Virus record (IMG/VR): IMGVR_UViG_3300025407_000161
Location: 1-20,300 of that record
DNA length: 20,300 bases
Direction: 5' to 3' (one strand)
Source: a virus
This document shows positions 3,324-19,879 of the stretch, piece after piece. The notes beneath the pieces were generated by a model that had not been told where the DNA came from, made no database searches, and saw only the letters and a program-made list of their open reading frames with translations. Numbering within the stretch: position 1 is the first letter of the stretch; every line of letters begins with the position of its first letter. The position numbers were made by a program, and so were the translations under genes.

Positions 3324-3503
3324 TTAGCCCCTTTTCCATTCGCGATAGGCAAGCATGATTCTAAATATCAACAAACCGAGCGAGCCAATCGTCACGAAAA
3401 ATGCCGCCCAAGCCCCCATAACCTCCGCCCACCAAGGGAGTGTCATGGCCCCCGCAGCGATTGCGCTGTCGATCATGAGGTTGCTGTTGTCGTGAGAGGT
3501 CAT
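3324..3503 (-). CDS. Small T7-type holin candidate, 59 aa
   Basis: This 59-residue protein starts MTSHDNSNLMIDSAIAAGAM. It has an amphipathic N-terminal half, then one clear hydrophobic segment (about residues 31-49, from AWAAFFVTIGSLGLLIF) and a basic end YREWKRG. Length, an N-out-like short helix and the charged YREWKRG tail resemble the small class II holins of T7-like phages (gp17.5 type), which also lie next to fibre genes. The ATG at 3503 is preceded by AAGGTG at about 6-7 bases. It follows the stop of one Gly-rich fibre gene by 9 bases and precedes the next gene by 6, so it fits the operon tightly. If real, the phage has two holin candidates; this one could be an antiholin or a pinholin-like partner. 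A generic small membrane protein is the alternative. Confidence 0.75.
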   Translation of the reverse strand: MTSHDNSNLMIDSAIAAGAMTLPWWAEVMGAWAAFFVTIGSLGLLIFRIMLAYREWKRG

Positions 3504-3512
3504 GGCATCACC

Positions 3513-4349
3513 TTAATAGTTATAATGTTCTTCAATGATAATGATGCCAGAACCGCCCGCGCCTCCAGCGCCGCCGCCTGAACCTGCTGACCCAGCGGTG
3601 CCGCCAGCACCAACAGAGTAAGAATACGTTGAAGACGGAGAAGTCATAATTTTTTCTAAATACCCACCGGCAGAACCCGCTTGGCCAGAATAAATTCCAC
3701 TTCCGCCCCCAGCAGAGCCGCCACCGGCACCGGAATTTGTTTGTGCAGCCGTTCCGCTTCCTCCGCCATTGCTCCCCGAATTTCCTCCAGAGCCAAAAAT
3801 AGTGCTTGCCCCGCATTGTCCATAAGTATTGGTTAAATTTCCTCCCCCAGTAGCATTAGACGCGCTTTGTGTGGGAGCAAATGCTCCCTGAGCGTTAAAG
3901 TCCCCGCCTGTTGCCGTTCCTCCCGTATTGGGAGAACCACCAGTGCCTCCGTTGCTGCCAGCACTACCACCGCCGCCGCCATTGCAAGTTAAAAATGACG
4001 TACCAAAAGTGGTTGTCCCGCCTGTGCCACCATTACTTTGGCCGCCCGAACCACTTCCGCCACCACCACCGCCGCCGCCAACCATGCGGACGCGAATCCA
4101 CTTTACACCTGCTGGTAAAGTGTATGTGCCTGAACCGGATGTATAAATTGTTTGAGTCGGGCCGGTTGTGCTTTGGTTGTTTGCGGTGGTTGTCAACAAA
4201 ACACTTGTCCACGCCGAGCCATTATAGACGTCTGGCGCAACGGTTGTTGTATTAAAGCCTGTTTGCCCCGTGTTGGGCGTTGCAGGGCGTGTGGCTGTCG
4301 TCCATTGGGCTGGGGTTTCGCCAACCTGTCCGCTTAAAATAATGCTCAT
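3513..4349 (-). CDS. Glycine-rich adhesin-like tail fibre protein, 278 aa
   Basis: Residues 21-50 carry RPATPNTGQTGFNTTT followed by VYNGSAW, a short module that often starts phage fibre or fibre-tip proteins. Residues 66-90 form a strand region (TIYTSGSGTYTLPAGVKWIR) leading into an uninterrupted run of eight glycines (91-98). Glycine-rich sequence continues to about residue 265, and the protein ends GSGIIIIEEHYNY, a C-terminal motif common to this fibre class. Overall it parallels the 270-aa Gly-rich protein downstream: strand module, polyglycine body, fixed short C-terminus. The ATG at 4349 overlaps the preceding stop as ATGA, with GGAG eight bases upstream. A distal receptor-binding role is inferred from the resemblance to polyglycine phage adhesins. 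Confidence 0.82.
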   Translation of the reverse strand: MSIILSGQVGETPAQWTTATRPATPNTGQTGFNTTTVAPDVYNGSAWTSVLLTTTANNQSTTGPTQTIYTSGSGTYTLPAGVKWIRVRMVGGGGGGGGSGSGGQSNGGTGGTTTFGTSFLTCNGGGGGSAGSNGGTGGSPNTGGTATGGDFNAQGAFAPTQSASNATGGGNLTNTYGQCGASTIFGSGGNSGSNGGGSGTAAQTNSGAGGGSAGGGSGIYSGQAGSAGGYLEKIMTSPSSTYSYSVGAGGTAGSAGSGGGAGGAGGSGIIIIEEHYNY

Positions 4350-4513
4350 TGTGCGGCTCCAATGGTAAGTTTGCCTTCTGCGACGAGGGCCATGATGGCA
4401 GCGTAGTCGGTGTTGGCGGGGTCAAGCGGCACGAAACTGGTCACGCCGTTGATGTCAACGCGGATGCAATCATTTTTTCCATTTGAAAAAATATATTGTG
4501 CGTTTTCATACAT
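4346..4513 (-). CDS. Short fibre-associated protein, 55 aa
   Basis: The ATG at 4513 is chosen over one 14 codons upstream because it avoids a 40-base overlap, lies two bases after the previous stop and has GGAG eight bases upstream. The product begins MYENAQYIFSNGKND and contains VDINGVTSFVPLDPANTDYA, followed by a short helix (AIMALVAEGKL). Proteins with a DPANTDYAAY-like motif and a hydrophobic helix are frequent next to phage fibre genes, usually with no assigned role. A fibre-assembly or accessory function is suggested only by position. Its stop overlaps the next fibre start (ATGA). Confidence 0.72.
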   Translation of the reverse strand: MYENAQYIFSNGKNDCIRVDINGVTSFVPLDPANTDYAAIMALVAEGKLTIGAAQ

Positions 4514-4515
4514 GA

Positions 4516-5619
4516 TTACAACTCCGCCGATGCAGTTATATGGACGCCGCCCCATTCACCGTTTGTGTTCCCGCCTCCTGCGGCATAATACCAAGAAGCA
4601 GTTACGTTATCAGTCCCAATTGCGTCGGTTCCGCCATTATAATTTGTGCTGCTATCAAAATCTCTAAATGGATTTGTTGTGCTTCCATTGTTAGGATTGT
4701 AAAAAGTAATGCTTGGAGCGGTTCTTTTTGAAACCGCAAATTTCCATACCGTTCTAATTGTTTTTGAAGCAAATGACATCATAGACAAAATGCCATTGTT
4801 TGTTACCGTTCCCGGCGCTGTGGTTATGTCATAAGTCTTTTCATAATACCGCTGACACAGCATCAACTCCTGCCCATACAACCGCCGTTCAAACGGTGTG
4901 GCGATGGAGCCGGGTTCAAATTGGACGTTTCCAATAGACCATGTTCCACTCGTCTGTGCGCCAACCGTGAAAAGAATTTCAATCCCGGTAGTAGCAGCAG
5001 AAGGAACAGCAATATTTACAGTATATTGTGTCAGGGTTGACGAAACTGTAAACGTACCCGTCGCAATTTGAGTTTTAGTCGGGGTACCAATGGTTCCAAA
5101 CGTGTCAGCAGTATTTGCATACGACGCTGTCCACGTCACGGTTGTCAAAGTGCTGTTCGCAAGCAGAACCGAAAGAGTGCATGTCTGGCCCGCGAGATCA
5201 TACGAATTTAATTGCTCGATGCGTTGGCCTACACCAACTGCCGTTACAGAAGCAGCGCCTGTGATCTGAAGAAGATTTTTATTGTTACCACTACCTGCAA
5301 CTTGTGCGGCAGTTACGTTAGCACCTGTTGAATAAACGAACCAACGATCAACACATGGAAACCCTGCTGATGCAGTTGGAACAGCAGTTCCTGCCGTGAC
5401 TGTAGCAGACGTACCGCGCTGAGCAATCTGCATCGCACCATTGATGATGCGATTTCGCAAAAACGAAGACGCCATCACCACCGTGCCAGATGTGGCCGTG
5501 ATATTGTTTGCAGCCGTCAGACTGCTGCCGACAGTCACGTTGCCTGACGTATCCAATGCAAGATTGGTCGTGGAGGAAGCAGCGTTTTGGATGTTGGTAG
5601 TTTGAAGTGTTGCGGTCAT
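4516..5619 (-). CDS. Tail fibre with predicted carbohydrate-binding domain, 367 aa
   Basis: The N-terminal module (about 1-52) has the fibre pattern LALDTSGNVTVGSSLTAANN. Then comes NRIINGAMQIAQRGT (56-70) and a DRW (91-93), which open a beta-sandwich domain seen in many phage fibres. That domain closes with VQFEPGSIATPFERR (232-246) and CQRYYEKT (255-262). The set INGxM-xxxxRGT, DRW, and QxEPGxxATPFE is a recognisable phage tail-fibre signature of a putative carbohydrate-binding domain. The C-terminal 100 residues are less conserved-looking and may be the specificity tip. The ATG at 5619 has GGAG eight bases upstream. Immediately upstream is a 28-residue fibre fragment in another frame, so this gene may have replaced the body of an older fibre. 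Confidence 0.85.
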   Translation of the reverse strand: MTATLQTTNIQNAASSTTNLALDTSGNVTVGSSLTAANNITATSGTVVMASSFLRNRIINGAMQIAQRGTSATVTAGTAVPTASAGFPCVDRWFVYSTGANVTAAQVAGSGNNKNLLQITGAASVTAVGVGQRIEQLNSYDLAGQTCTLSVLLANSTLTTVTWTASYANTADTFGTIGTPTKTQIATGTFTVSSTLTQYTVNIAVPSAATTGIEILFTVGAQTSGTWSIGNVQFEPGSIATPFERRLYGQELMLCQRYYEKTYDITTAPGTVTNNGILSMMSFASKTIRTVWKFAVSKRTAPSITFYNPNNGSTTNPFRDFDSSTNYNGGTDAIGTDNVTASWYYAAGGGNTNGEWGGVHITASAEL

Positions 5620-5632
5620 TGCCCGATCTCCA

Positions 5633-5719
5633 TCAAAGTAATATAACTTGCTGTGCAGATGTGCCGCCAGCAGTTACTGGGAAGGAGATGCCATTGGTTC
5701 CGTCAACTATGGTAGTCAT
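5633..5719 (-). CDS. 28-aa ORF resembling a fibre N-terminal leader; possibly a gene remnant
   Basis: The peptide begins MTTIVDGTNGISFPVTAGGT, which matches the opening of many phage fibre proteins (a TIVDGTNGI-type first strand). Translation stops after 28 residues, 13 bases before the ATG of the 367-aa fibre, which is in a different frame. The start lies eight bases after the stop of the 200-aa fibre, with a purine-rich GAGTGAGA upstream, so initiation is plausible. Either it is a vestige of a fibre whose body was lost or replaced by recombination, or it is a tiny functional peptide. The sequence resemblance favours the remnant. Confidence 0.4.
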   Translation of the reverse strand: MTTIVDGTNGISFPVTAGGTSAQQVILL

Positions 5720-5727
5720 GGTTTATC

Positions 5728-6330
5728 TCACTCGTAGAAAATGTTGACTGTGCCAGCCGTAAATGTATCGGCTGAGGAAGATGTAATAGTCAAACTTGTT
5801 AGAACCGAACTAAGAGCGATAGAGCCGCCTCCATTGATGCCAAAATTTGAACTACCGTTAAAAAATCCGCCAGAATGAGTTGACAGCCAATTGTTCCCTG
5901 AAATGTTCATAATCGTCATATTGCAATAAAGTGTGTCTGACGATCCGCCATGCTGGAACGGAAACCCAGCAGAAGAACTACCACTTCCTGCGTTGCTGGT
6001 TGTATTCAAATATGCAAAATAACCCAAATACCCAGAAGACACGATGCCACTTGATGTTCCCAATTGAACAAGAAACAAACTTGACCCGTTTGTTTTTAAT
6101 CCGTTGCAAACAAAAGTAATTCTTTTGACGTATGATGGAATTCCGGTAAATGTGTATGAAGTTCCAGATGTTAACGTCTGGGGGGTTCCACTCACAATAT
6201 TTGTAGAGACACCCTGCACCGCGATTGTGCCTGTTCCCGATGGGACAGTGATAACACTGCTTCCCGCCACTGCTGGCACGGTCAACTGCACTGAGCCGCT
6301 GGTATCACCGTTGAGAGTAATGGATGACAT
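5728..6330 (-). CDS. Tail fibre-like protein, 200 aa
   Basis: The N-terminal 40 residues (SITLNGDTSGSVQLTVPAVA, then a TVPSGTGTI strand) form a short module shared with the 95-aa protein at 7312-7599, which reads LTLNGSSSGQITLSPPAVAG. The rest is Ser/Gly/Asn-rich beta sequence with few charges. It includes SYVKRITFVCNGL (about 67-79) and an aromatic-rich middle (FPFQHGG), and ends TAGTVNIFYE. This layout of a conserved anchoring module and a variable distal part is typical of small phage fibres. The start shares one base with the upstream stop (TAATG), so it depends on coupled translation. Function beyond virion receptor binding cannot be read from the sequence. Confidence 0.78.
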   Translation of the reverse strand: MSSITLNGDTSGSVQLTVPAVAGSSVITVPSGTGTIAVQGVSTNIVSGTPQTLTSGTSYTFTGIPSYVKRITFVCNGLKTNGSSLFLVQLGTSSGIVSSGYLGYFAYLNTTSNAGSGSSSAGFPFQHGGSSDTLYCNMTIMNISGNNWLSTHSGGFFNGSSNFGINGGGSIALSSVLTSLTITSSSADTFTAGTVNIFYE

Positions 6331-7312: not shown

Positions 7313-7599
7313 TACAGCACCACCCACTTAGAGCCGCTTGGAACCGTAACGCTAATGCCAGAATTGACCGTAATCGGCCCGGCTGACACTGCGCTGCTTC
7401 CTGACGGGATACTATACGATGTTGAGACAGTTTGCGAGTTCACAAAGAACGGACCTGTGTTCACCAACGCGCCAGCCGAATTGATGAGAGGGATCGTTCC
7501 GGATGCCGCCTGAAGGCTTTGCGTCTGCGTTCCCGCAACCGCTGGTGGGGACAAGGTAATTTGACCTGACGATGATCCGTTGAGTGTTAAATTGCCCAT
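7312..7599 (-). CDS. Minimal fibre protein, 95 aa; C-terminus is a diverged copy of the large fibre's end
   Basis: The ATG at 7599 overlaps the endonuclease stop by one base (TAATG) and is chosen over one 12 codons upstream. The protein joins two modules. The first is the N-terminal LTLNGSSSGQITLSPPAVAG (also opening the 200-aa fibre). The second is a C-terminal 45 residues with QTVSTSYSIPSGSSAVSAGP and ending VTVPSGSKWVVL. The latter aligns with the last 45 residues of the 1106-aa fibre (QTVNSSYSIPSNTN, ending STWTVI). It is thus a very short fibre with an anchor and a terminal domain but almost no shaft. It may be a degenerate fibre, a capping subunit, or a leftover from recombination around the endonuclease gene. 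Confidence 0.72.
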   Translation of the reverse strand: MGNLTLNGSSSGQITLSPPAVAGTQTQSLQAASGTIPLINSAGALVNTGPFFVNSQTVSTSYSIPSGSSAVSAGPITVNSGISVTVPSGSKWVVL

Positions 7600-8453
7600 T
7601 ATGCCGCCTCCGCCAGAACTATCCGGCTCTTGCACCGATCCATATGATACCTGTTCATGGCACTTCCGCCACCTTCTTTACCACAATGTGGGCAAATCTG
7701 CCGCATCCTTAATTTGGCCATATGCTCTTCTGAAAACTTTTTCCCAGTCCAAGGACCGGGGCGACCACGCCCCCAAGAAGCAATTTTCTCCAATGTTTCA
7801 GAAGAATGTTTTCGGCCAAAAAATGGGTTAAGTTCTCCCTGCCGTTTGGCGGAAAGTTTTTGTTTTGTAAATTCACTATGCGGGCTGCGAACCACATTTC
7901 TTTTTTGGCTTATGCTCATTTTTGCACGAGTTTCATCAGAATGCTTTTTCCCCTTAAATGGAGAATTATGGGTTCTGTAATATTGCCGTATTTTTTCTTT
8001 TTGTTCTTCTGGCAATTTGCGACCACGCTGCGTTTCGCTAATTTTGCGACGATATTCATCGTCAACTACCCGTTTTGTTTTTGACCATTCAATAAATTTG
8101 GCAGTTTGTTTTTTCTTTGTTTCATCGGAAACATTAATGGCGCCGTCTCCGCCATCCGTGCAATTAACCAAAATTCCGGTTCCAATATCTTTCCGGCCAT
8201 ATTGTCTGATAAATTCAACTTCTAATTGAAGTGCTTCTTGGCTGGTTAAGCCATCTTTAACAACAGTTATAATCGGTTCTTGCCCATTGCGAAGCAACTT
8301 GGCAACAACGCGAACAGCCCATTTTTTATTGTTACGGCCAGCCTTAGCATCCCGCAAATGAATACGCTTGCGCGGCCCCGTTCCTTTACCAACGTAAAAG
8401 GGCGTCCCGTCTGGATAACTATAAGTATAAACGTAAAATTTCTTTTCGGTCAT
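7599..8453 (-). CDS. GIY-YIG homing endonuclease with NUMOD3 repeats and C-terminal zinc finger
   Basis: This 284-aa protein has an N-terminal GIY-YIG nuclease domain. YVY (8-10) and YVGKG (20-24) are the two name motifs, arginines follow at 28-34, and Glu78 in ALQLEVEFI is the likely metal-binding catalytic residue (Glu80 is an alternative). C-terminal DNA-binding repeats of the NUMOD3 type are at about 167-184 (KGKKHSDETRAKMS), 212-228 (GRKHSSETLEKI) and 236-252 (GKKFSEEHMAKL), with a degenerate one near 130-155. C254, C257, H270 and C274 form a probable zinc finger. It would cut a specific site in endonuclease-free relatives and spread by repair. The ATG at 8453 overlaps the large fibre stop as ATGA, so it is free-standing, not intronic. 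The gene is clearly AT-richer than neighbours, consistent with transfer. Confidence 0.93.
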   Translation of the reverse strand: MTEKKFYVYTYSYPDGTPFYVGKGTGPRKRIHLRDAKAGRNNKKWAVRVVAKLLRNGQEPIITVVKDGLTSQEALQLEVEFIRQYGRKDIGTGILVNCTDGGDGAINVSDETKKKQTAKFIEWSKTKRVVDDEYRRKISETQRGRKLPEEQKEKIRQYYRTHNSPFKGKKHSDETRAKMSISQKRNVVRSPHSEFTKQKLSAKRQGELNPFFGRKHSSETLEKIASWGRGRPGPWTGKKFSEEHMAKLRMRQICPHCGKEGGGSAMNRYHMDRCKSRIVLAEAA

Positions 8454-11400
8454 ATTACGGTCCAAGTCGAGGATGCGCCGACCGTGATCGTCGCGCCACT
8501 CGCAATAGTGACAGGCCCGAACGTGCCAGCGTTGGTGTTTGACGGGATGCTATACGACGAATTGACGGTCTGGCCGTTATTCCAGAAGATTTGATCCGTG
8601 CCGCCGCCTGTCGCACTGGCTGTAATCGTTGTCCATGTCGGGGGTGCTGACGGGCCACCGGACACAAAGGCTTGACCGGAAGTGCCATAATTGACCGTGG
8701 CTGCTGCAACAGAGCCAATGCCCCACGCGCCAGACGTATTAATCGCAAACTGGCCTGAACCGTTCGTGTAGAACGACAGCGGCAAATATGTGCCGGTGCC
8801 GTTGATGCCAGATACCAACTGAACGTCGGTTGAGCCGTTCGTCGCAATCAGAATTTTTGACGCATTGGTTGGATTAGAATTGTTTGTAGCTTGCCAAGAC
8901 GCCGCCGTTGAGGTGCCAGATGGCAGGGCATAGATGCCGGTCGTGCTGTTGGCTGTACTGGTTTGGAAGGCAAAACGGGATGCCACGGTCGTATTGGTGA
9001 AGTCAGCAAGGAACAACGCGCCTGTGCCGGTGGCTGTGATGTTGCCGCTTGTTGTCGGCGTCGTAATTGTGGGCGACGTGGCCAAGACAATACCGCCCGA
9101 GCCAGTGACTGCTTGGCCCAATGCGGTCTGGACGCCCGTGCCAAATGATGTGATGCCCGTGCCGCCATTCGCAATCGCAAGTGTGCCACCAAGTGTTATA
9201 GCACCGGTGGTGGCGGTGTTCGGCGTCAAGCCGGTTGTTCCCGCGCTAAATGACGTTACGCCGCCCGTTGACGCAGCCCACGTTGCCGTCGTGCCGTTTG
9301 AGGTCAAGACATAGCCACTCGTTCCAATGGCGAGGCGCGTTGCGCTATTTGTGCCATTGCCAATGATGAGGTCGCCCGTGGACGTGATCGGAGAAAGAGC
9401 ATTGAAAGCCGCAGATGCTGTGGTTTGCCCCGTACCACCATTGGCGATGTTAAGTGTGCCAGACAGTGTGATCGCGCCAGTCGTGCCGGTCGATGGAGAG
9501 AACCCCGTCGTACCAGCCGAGAATGACGTGACGCCGCCAGTTGATGCCGCCCAAGTAGGGACGCCGCCAGCCAATGTGAGGACGTAACCGTTTGTCCCCG
9601 CTGCAAGGCGCGACCAAGTATTTGTGCCGGAGCCATAAAGCAAATCGCCGGTCGCAACTGCTGTTTGGCCCGTGCCGCCGACCGTTGCACCGACCGAGCC
9701 TGACGTAATTTGCGAGCCAGCGATGGCGATTGACGTGTTGGACGCCGCCGTCAACTGCCCCTGAGCATTAACCGTGAATGTGCCGACCGACGATGCCGAA
9801 CCGTAAGAATTAGCAGAAACCGCCGTGTTTGTGATGCTGAACGTGGTGCCTGTAAGCGTGAGGCCCGTGCCAGCGGAGTATGACGTTGATGCACCGATTT
9901 GCACAAACACCAGCGGCGTTGTGCCGATTGTAATTGGCGCGTCCGTTGTCTGCACCCACTGGGTATTGGCGTTGACTGTTCCGTTAATGATGAACGTCGT
10001 GTCGCCCGGCGCAACTTCATTCTGACCAGTGCCGGTTTGATCGTAGTCAGTTGCGCGGGTAAGCACCCAGCCAACAGAACCCGAACCAACGCTTGTAACC
10101 GTGTAAATGCCGTTATATTGGCCGCTGGTTTCGTTCTTGACGAGGATACGCTGGCCGACCGATGGATTACCGCCGTCAATGGCGAGCGTGGCGAATGGCG
10201 ATGTCTTGGTGATTGTAGCACCGACGCCCGACGATCCGTTGTTATAGGTCACCGTGCCGAGGTCTGCCGTCGTCGCGTATTCGCAAGCGGCGTGGTAGTT
10301 GTTCCCGCTGACGACAGAATCGACATAAGTCTTGTTAACAATATCGGTCCCGCCCGATGGCGCGGTCGAGATTGTGCCGGTCGTCATCGCAACGCTGGTG
10401 GCAGATGCCGCGCCGAGGGTCGGGGTCACCAGCGTCGGCGAATTTGACAGCACCACGGAGCCCGTGCCGGTTGATGTCGTTGTGCCAGTGCCGCCATATG
10501 CAACACCAACCGTCGTTCCTTGCCAAACGCCTGTTGCAATTGTTCCAACGCTTGTAAGAGATGAATTGACAACCGTGCTATTCAGCGTTGAGCCAGAAAG
10601 AGTGCCAGCGGGAGCAACAACTGCCGTCGCTGACGCCGCAGTCAATTGGCCTTGTGCATTGACTGTAATTGACGGAACAGACGACGCACCACCATAAGAG
10701 CCAGCCGTCACCGTCGTATTGGCAATGCTAATTGTGCCGGATGATGTAATTGGATTTGTGGTGCTGCTGCTTAAACCGGTGCCGACGCCAATGCTCGTGA
10801 CCGTGCCGGTGCCGCCCGCGCTAACCCAAACAGGATTTGCTCCCGCGCCTTGTGTTTGAAGAATTTGGCCAGCAATGCCGGGAGAAAGCGCCACCCAAGT
10901 GCCCGCTCCTCTATACAGAAACGAGCCCTGACCCGTGCCAAACACGGCATCAAGCAATGATGTTAAAGAAACCCCAACGGGCGCGGCTGTTGAGCCTGTC
11001 GCATTTGCAACGACGTAATTTGTAGTGATCGGTGCAAGAGAAATGGTTCGGTTTGCGGAAAGATCGCCGCCACCGGTGAGCCCAGTACCCGCCGTAATTG
11101 TTGTCGAGGAAGCCGCAGCGCCAATATTTGACGGAACAATTGTAATACTTTGTGCTGATGTCAGGCGGCCATAGGCATCAACCGTAAACCGAGACAACGC
11201 AGAACTTGTGCCATATGTTCCCGCCGTGACGCCGGTGCTTGGCAAAGAAATTGTGCCGCTTGTCGTGATTGTGCCACCGTTGAGGCCGTCTCCTGCCGTC
11301 ACAGACGTGACAGTACCTGTCCCGTAACTTTGCGCTTTGACGAATGCCGTCGTGGCGATTTGTGTGCTGCTATCAGATGATGTCGGTGTTGGGGCGGTTG

Positions 11401-19486: not shown

Positions 19487-19879
19487 TTACCAAACAATAT
19501 CAGGTGATTTGACGCGACCGCGAACGGCTACGTCATCAAGGATGCGGCAACGCTTGCTGTTGATGTCGATTGCCCACCCATCAGAGGGCCGGAAAACCAC
19601 CCAGTCACCGACCTTGATCTTCATATTCTTGAACCATTTGCCCGTCTCGTCGACAAAAGCATCCGGCCCCATCTTCAACACCAAGCCGACTTTGCCTTGG
19701 TATTTGTCTTCGTCGATTGTCTTGTCGGTCAGAATGATGCCCGAGGCGGTCTTCTGAGGACGAATATAGACGCCGACCAAGATTTGGTTGTTGAAGATTT
19801 CAACTTCCTTGATGTCACCGATCTCGTCCAAGATTTCCTTCTTGGGATCGACGGCATGTTTCATTTTCATAGGAGGCAT
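19487..19879 (-). CDS. Phage-encoded GroES-like co-chaperonin, 130 aa
   Basis: The core aligns with the cpn10 fold: NNQILVGVYIRPQKTASG (31-48), then IILTDKTIDEDKYQGKVGLV (48-67) and KVGDWVVFRPSDGWAIDINS (89-108), then RILDDVAVRGRV. The tripeptide Ile-Ile-Leu (48-50) sits where GroES carries the Ile-Val-Leu of its mobile loop that binds GroEL. It differs from GroES by an N-terminal extension of about 25 residues and a C-terminal SPDIVW tail, like phage co-chaperonins such as T4 gp31 that enlarge the folding chamber for coat protein. The start overlaps the previous stop (TAATG) with GAGAAA just upstream. The scaffold gene begins 10 bases after its stop, which suggests a role in capsid protein folding. 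Confidence 0.9.
   Translation of the reverse strand: MPPMKMKHAVDPKKEILDEIGDIKEVEIFNNQILVGVYIRPQKTASGIILTDKTIDEDKYQGKVGLVLKMGPDAFVDETGKWFKNMKIKVGDWVVFRPSDGWAIDINSKRCRILDDVAVRGRVKSPDIVW

Follow-up and report, generated by a model that had tools for sequence, protein, structure and literature searches.

A 28-codon reading frame between two phage fibre genes is very probably the truncated 5' end of a fibre gene

The minus-strand run of fibre genes in an IMG/VR virus record contains an open reading frame (ORF) of only 28 codons, which is in all likelihood the truncated 5' end, or stump, of a once full-length fibre gene that stood between the two fibre genes now flanking it. The window (the whole stretch of DNA analysed, 20,300 bases) also carries a GroES-like gene and a major-head-like gene. 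The first-pass annotation had described a 28-residue fibre N-terminal fragment between two fibre genes, followed 13 bases later by a different fibre in another frame, and both descriptions were confirmed in coordinates, length and stop, the strand being minus. The ORF runs from ATG to TGA (5719-5633) and starts 8 bases 3' of the stop of the 200-aa upstream gene. After its TGA, 13 bases lead to the start of the next fibre gene at 5619, in a different frame. The features of this region are as follows:

4346-4513, minus: 55-aa gene (MYENAQYIF...) adjoining the downstream fibre; a homologue follows the corresponding fibre of relative L111 (67% identity over 55 aa)
4516-5619, minus: downstream fibre gene (MTATLQTTNIQ..., 367 aa), complete with its own start; phrog_4492, tail fiber protein (E 1.5e-54)
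5621-5647, minus: 27-bp junction between the end of the alignment to L111 and the start of the alignments to L039 and L059
5633-5719, minus: 28-codon ORF, MTTIVDGTNGISFPVTAGGTSAQQVILL, very probably the truncated 5' end of a fibre gene, from its translation and anchor homology
5648-5719, minus: codons 1-24 of the ORF, whose homologues are the anchors of full-length fibre genes from L111/L070, L072 and L065 (58 of 72 bases identical to L111)
5720-5727, minus: 8-base gap past the upstream gene's stop codon, from comparison with the relatives' leaders
5728-6330, minus: upstream fibre-like gene (MSSITLNGDTSG..., 200 aa); phrog_29482, function unknown (E 6e-08)

Elsewhere in the window, a GIY-YIG homing endonuclease gene with NUMOD3 motifs (7599-8465, minus) lies within the string of fibre genes and overlaps the end of a 1106-aa fibre gene, and the GroES-like co-chaperonin gene (19487-19879, minus) lies near the head genes. 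An ORF of 59 aa (MTSHDNSNLMID..., 3324-3503, minus), just below our ORF cut-off of 60 aa, has a membrane-like segment by eye and is possibly holin-like. Promoter and terminator scans gave no signal above shuffle level. A nucleotide search of a phage collection returned three records, each matching once, over 81-84 bases within the downstream fibre gene (window ~4844-4927), none of them matching at the 28-aa ORF; six Campylobacter phage records retrieved by tblastn of the 28 residues (E 6-8) were taken as chance.

The short frame and its full-length relatives

Relatives of the 200-aa upstream gene occur at 41 loci (designated by L numbers, the near-identical contig described below counted in), 24 of which were inspected at the point where the short ORF begins. 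The first-pass annotation had suggested a search for a full-length gene with this opening at the same locus, and two such genes were found: at the position of the ORF, immediately 3' of the upstream gene's homologue, a full-length gene opening with MTTIVDGSNGVS is present in L070/L111 (167 aa; L111 is the contig of L070) and in L071/L110 (166 aa; L110 is the whole contig of L071). Codons 1-24 of the ORF match the gene of L070/L111, which bears out the earlier view that an old anchor remains here, and over these 24 residues the amino-acid identity to L111, L072 and L065 is 71-83%. At the DNA level the window and L111 share 58/72 bases in codons 1-24 and 33/44 just upstream but only 6/27 in the stretch that follows, which argues that the resemblance of the opening is not due to chance. 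The anchor codons that differ from L111 comprise six synonymous and four non-synonymous ones, numbers too small to gauge selection.

The similarity extends to the bases preceding the start codon. The TGA of the upstream gene and the 8-base gap form a leader, TGAGATAAACC, before the ATG of the ORF, and similar leaders occur in L070, L071, L073 and L086, where they precede different fibre genes; before the full-length genes of L070 and L071 the leader reads TGAGATAA. Among 37 distinct anchor-opening ORFs in the loci compared, the 28-aa ORF is the shortest, bar a 12-aa minus-strand pattern match in L003, and the next shortest are 52-60 aa. Tblastn of the 167-aa L111 protein against the window matched in residues 1-24 only, and that of the L110 protein in residues 1-15 only, apart from matches at E 2.8 and above. 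Neither the locus nor any other part of the window thus contains the body of the gene opening with MTTIVDG.

The two full-length genes have their first 12 residues in common and different bodies (the L070 fibre gene matches phrog_7459, E 1.2e-06; the L110 body has a C1q match, E 0.00087, that falls short of Pfam's cut-off), indicating that the anchor carries exchangeable bodies. L110 has the gene order of the window with a full-length gene in the middle, and is the one relative in which this was seen: the upstream gene is followed by the 166-aa MTTIVDG gene, an MTATLQ fibre, a short gene ending in GKLTIGAAE and a gene with MSIILNGQNGETPAQWTTATRP. In L111, an 89-aa gene comes next after the 167-aa one, then an MVATLN fibre and the homologue of the window's 55-aa MYENAQ gene; as in L072, the MVATLN fibre comes after the additional 89-aa gene. 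Gene orders vary among the remaining relatives of the locus. An MTATL- or MVATL-type fibre directly follows the upstream gene in L073 (MTATLK) and L091 (MVATLN), an MSTLKATNLQ gene begins at that point in L086, and 60-aa MAV(I/T)IDGSVG genes do so in L079, L100 and L101.

Sixteen relatives of the L070 gene were examined, and in 11 of them, on a visual count of the gene starts, the next gene is one of 77-89 aa with a recurring VTIRGD-like stretch (L112, L113, L116, L118, L119, L123, L128, L129, L133, L134 and L136). The L070-type body and this partner appear to move as a unit, possibly a fibre with its chaperone, and on this pattern the window has neither the body nor any such partner; tblastn of L111's 89-aa partner found no match in the window up to E 10. 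A scan of genome contigs for relatives of the L070 gene found none.

The junction and the downstream fibre

Local alignment between the window and L111 is gapless through the end of the upstream gene and codons 1-24 and ends at 5648, and the alignments to L039 and L059 start at 5620, a single base ahead of the MTATLQ ATG. The 27-bp junction in between holds the last codons of the ORF (VILL), its TGA and a GGAG that is likely the ribosome site of the next gene. In the loci compared, with the window and its near-identical copies excluded, the best ungapped match to the junction is 18/27, versus 18-21 for 15 shuffles, and exact pattern scans of viral contigs returned the near-identical contig as sole match. 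Neither these scans nor the compared loci yielded a parent with the full-length gene and an identical junction; the event itself is thus not reconstructed, and we infer its direction. The end of the window's ORF (VILL, then TGA TGGAGAT) resembles that of a gene in L102 (WVIV, then TGA TGGAGAT), a likeness that hints at an internal in-frame deletion and is too weak to claim one.

Earlier, the fragment had been read as a scar of module replacement, in which the anchor stayed and its body was exchanged for the fibre that follows. The first part, an anchor without its body, agrees with our results; the second, the following fibre as the exchanged body, is at most partly supported and, on the gene order of L110, where an MTATLQ fibre stands after the full-length gene, would not be needed. 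L110 is a single relative in a set with varying gene order, and anchor-like openings are found joined to the downstream type of body within a single ORF (L060, L036, L058 and L102), which favours exchange. Judging from these fusions and from L110 versus L111, anchor/body exchange is real in this group. In the fused relatives, the anchor replaces the MTATLQ-type opening and does not precede it. In the window, the downstream fibre has a GGAG site ahead of its own ATG; in L039 and L059 the MTATLQ opening likewise has its own ATG, which overlaps another open frame's stop (95 and 416 codons, respectively), and in all seven other distinct MTATL-type starts listed an in-frame stop lies at most four codons upstream (within six in L059). 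These starts therefore carry no added anchor, and the downstream fibre, being complete and of a kind with its own start in relatives, is not a body in need of one. Since it has its own start and ribosome site and its type also follows the full-length gene in L110, the body of the truncated gene was probably lost and not visibly replaced.

Alternative readings of the short frame

The same fusions could suggest that anchor and downstream fibre are expressed as one protein in the window too, by a programmed +1 frameshift at CTT TGA. Ahead of its ATG the downstream frame stays open for another 18 codons, back through DGDRA, and the stop context matches the CTT TGA of release-factor-2 (prfB) genes. 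Such sites need a Shine-Dalgarno-like run a few bases before the CTT and a C after the TGA, whereas the window has no such run right before the CTT (GTTATATTA) and a T after the TGA. Because MTATL-type starts in relatives carry no added anchor, and the anchor of the fused genes substitutes for the MTATLQ-type opening, we consider this frameshift highly improbable. Still further down the scale, at the edge of what we would entertain, is that the two frames are really one gene split by a sequencing or assembly error. A one-base change would join them and anchor-plus-body genes exist in relatives, but the downstream gene has its own GGAG site, relatives begin at the corresponding ATG, and a second contig is the same across the junction. 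This contig, IMGVR_UViG_3300006071_000275 (L069, one of the 24 inspected loci), is 99.96% identical to the window over 10,296 bp without gaps, its four mismatches all lying at 1510-1693 and its ORF region being identical. The unchanged ORF makes a simple assembly error appear unlikely, with the caveat that the two assemblies may not be independent.

Alternatively, the short frame might encode a functional peptide or act as a leader ORF, linking translation of the downstream fibre to that of the upstream gene. Its start site is plausible and its stop lies 13 bases before the next ATG, points that we count against the stump reading since they could suit a leader. From the GIY-YIG gene (8465) to position 248, neighbouring genes are spaced by -4 to 13 bases, and without the ORF an untranslated gap of 108 bases would interrupt them; a predicted fold pairs the region of the ribosome site with bases in the ORF (z -1.72, 10 of 200 shuffles at least as stable). 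Yet larger gaps, of 168 and 455 bases, separate listed genes elsewhere in the window, and RNA folding and ribosome-site accessibility revealed nothing unusual: the site is as closed or more so in 17% of 260 background genes and is the fourth most closed of 20 starts in the window. Conservation of the same 28-aa ORF in distant relatives would, according to the first-pass annotation, have pointed to a functional peptide; in the viral-contig scans and the loci fetched, the ORF was found in the window and IMGVR_UViG_3300006071_000275 only, and the same start and stop were not found in divergent relatives. A peptide or leader function is thus very unlikely. The related idea that the stump has been kept as a translated bridge, over whose 28 codons ribosomes would pass from the upstream gene on to the downstream fibre, we rate slightly lower again; if true, translation would open a hairpin in which mid-ORF bases pair with the ribosome site of the fibre, and the dead anchor would now be a coupling leader. 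Programmed frameshift, conserved peptide and regulatory leader all find little support here, and the anchor fusions keep a reading by exchange or as a fused gene alive.

Proposed origin and comparison with mosaic fibre clusters

With full-length genes at the same spot in two relatives, the ORF is most likely an ordinary trace of the gain, loss and reshuffling of fibre genes. A fibre gene would once have stood between the two flanking ones, and its first 24 codons would be what is left after deletion or illegitimate recombination near the anchor/body boundary removed the remainder. The 27-bp junction left behind would supply a quick stop and the next fibre's ribosome site, and the last codons and stop may derive from the 3' end of an old gene. 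The direction would be loss in the window and not gain in the relatives. The stump has an ATG and a GAG-type ribosome site and lies in a dense run of genes, so it may be translated passively; as a peptide it probably does nothing. Full middle gene (L110), truncated gene (window) and directly adjoining fibre (L073, L091) would then illustrate one step of fibre-gene turnover in uncultured phages, the truncated form having been seen in two nearly identical contigs only among the viral-contig scans and the loci compared.

Compared to the full-length anchor genes, the window shares the first 24 residues and, with L070/L111, the locus, but has neither the ~140-aa body nor the 77-89-aa partner gene. 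The tail-fibre gene clusters of dsDNA phages are mosaic, with modules exchanged at shared N-terminal segments. Unlike in such clusters, the remnant in the window precedes a complete neighbour gene, of a kind also present in L110, instead of a visibly swapped body, and its junction contains 27 bp whose matches in the compared loci are at chance level. Like them, the locus combines shared openings with different bodies (L110 and L111), a gene content that varies among relatives and a truncated remnant at a junction; it leaves the general view of phage evolution unchanged and fits ordinary mosaic evolution.
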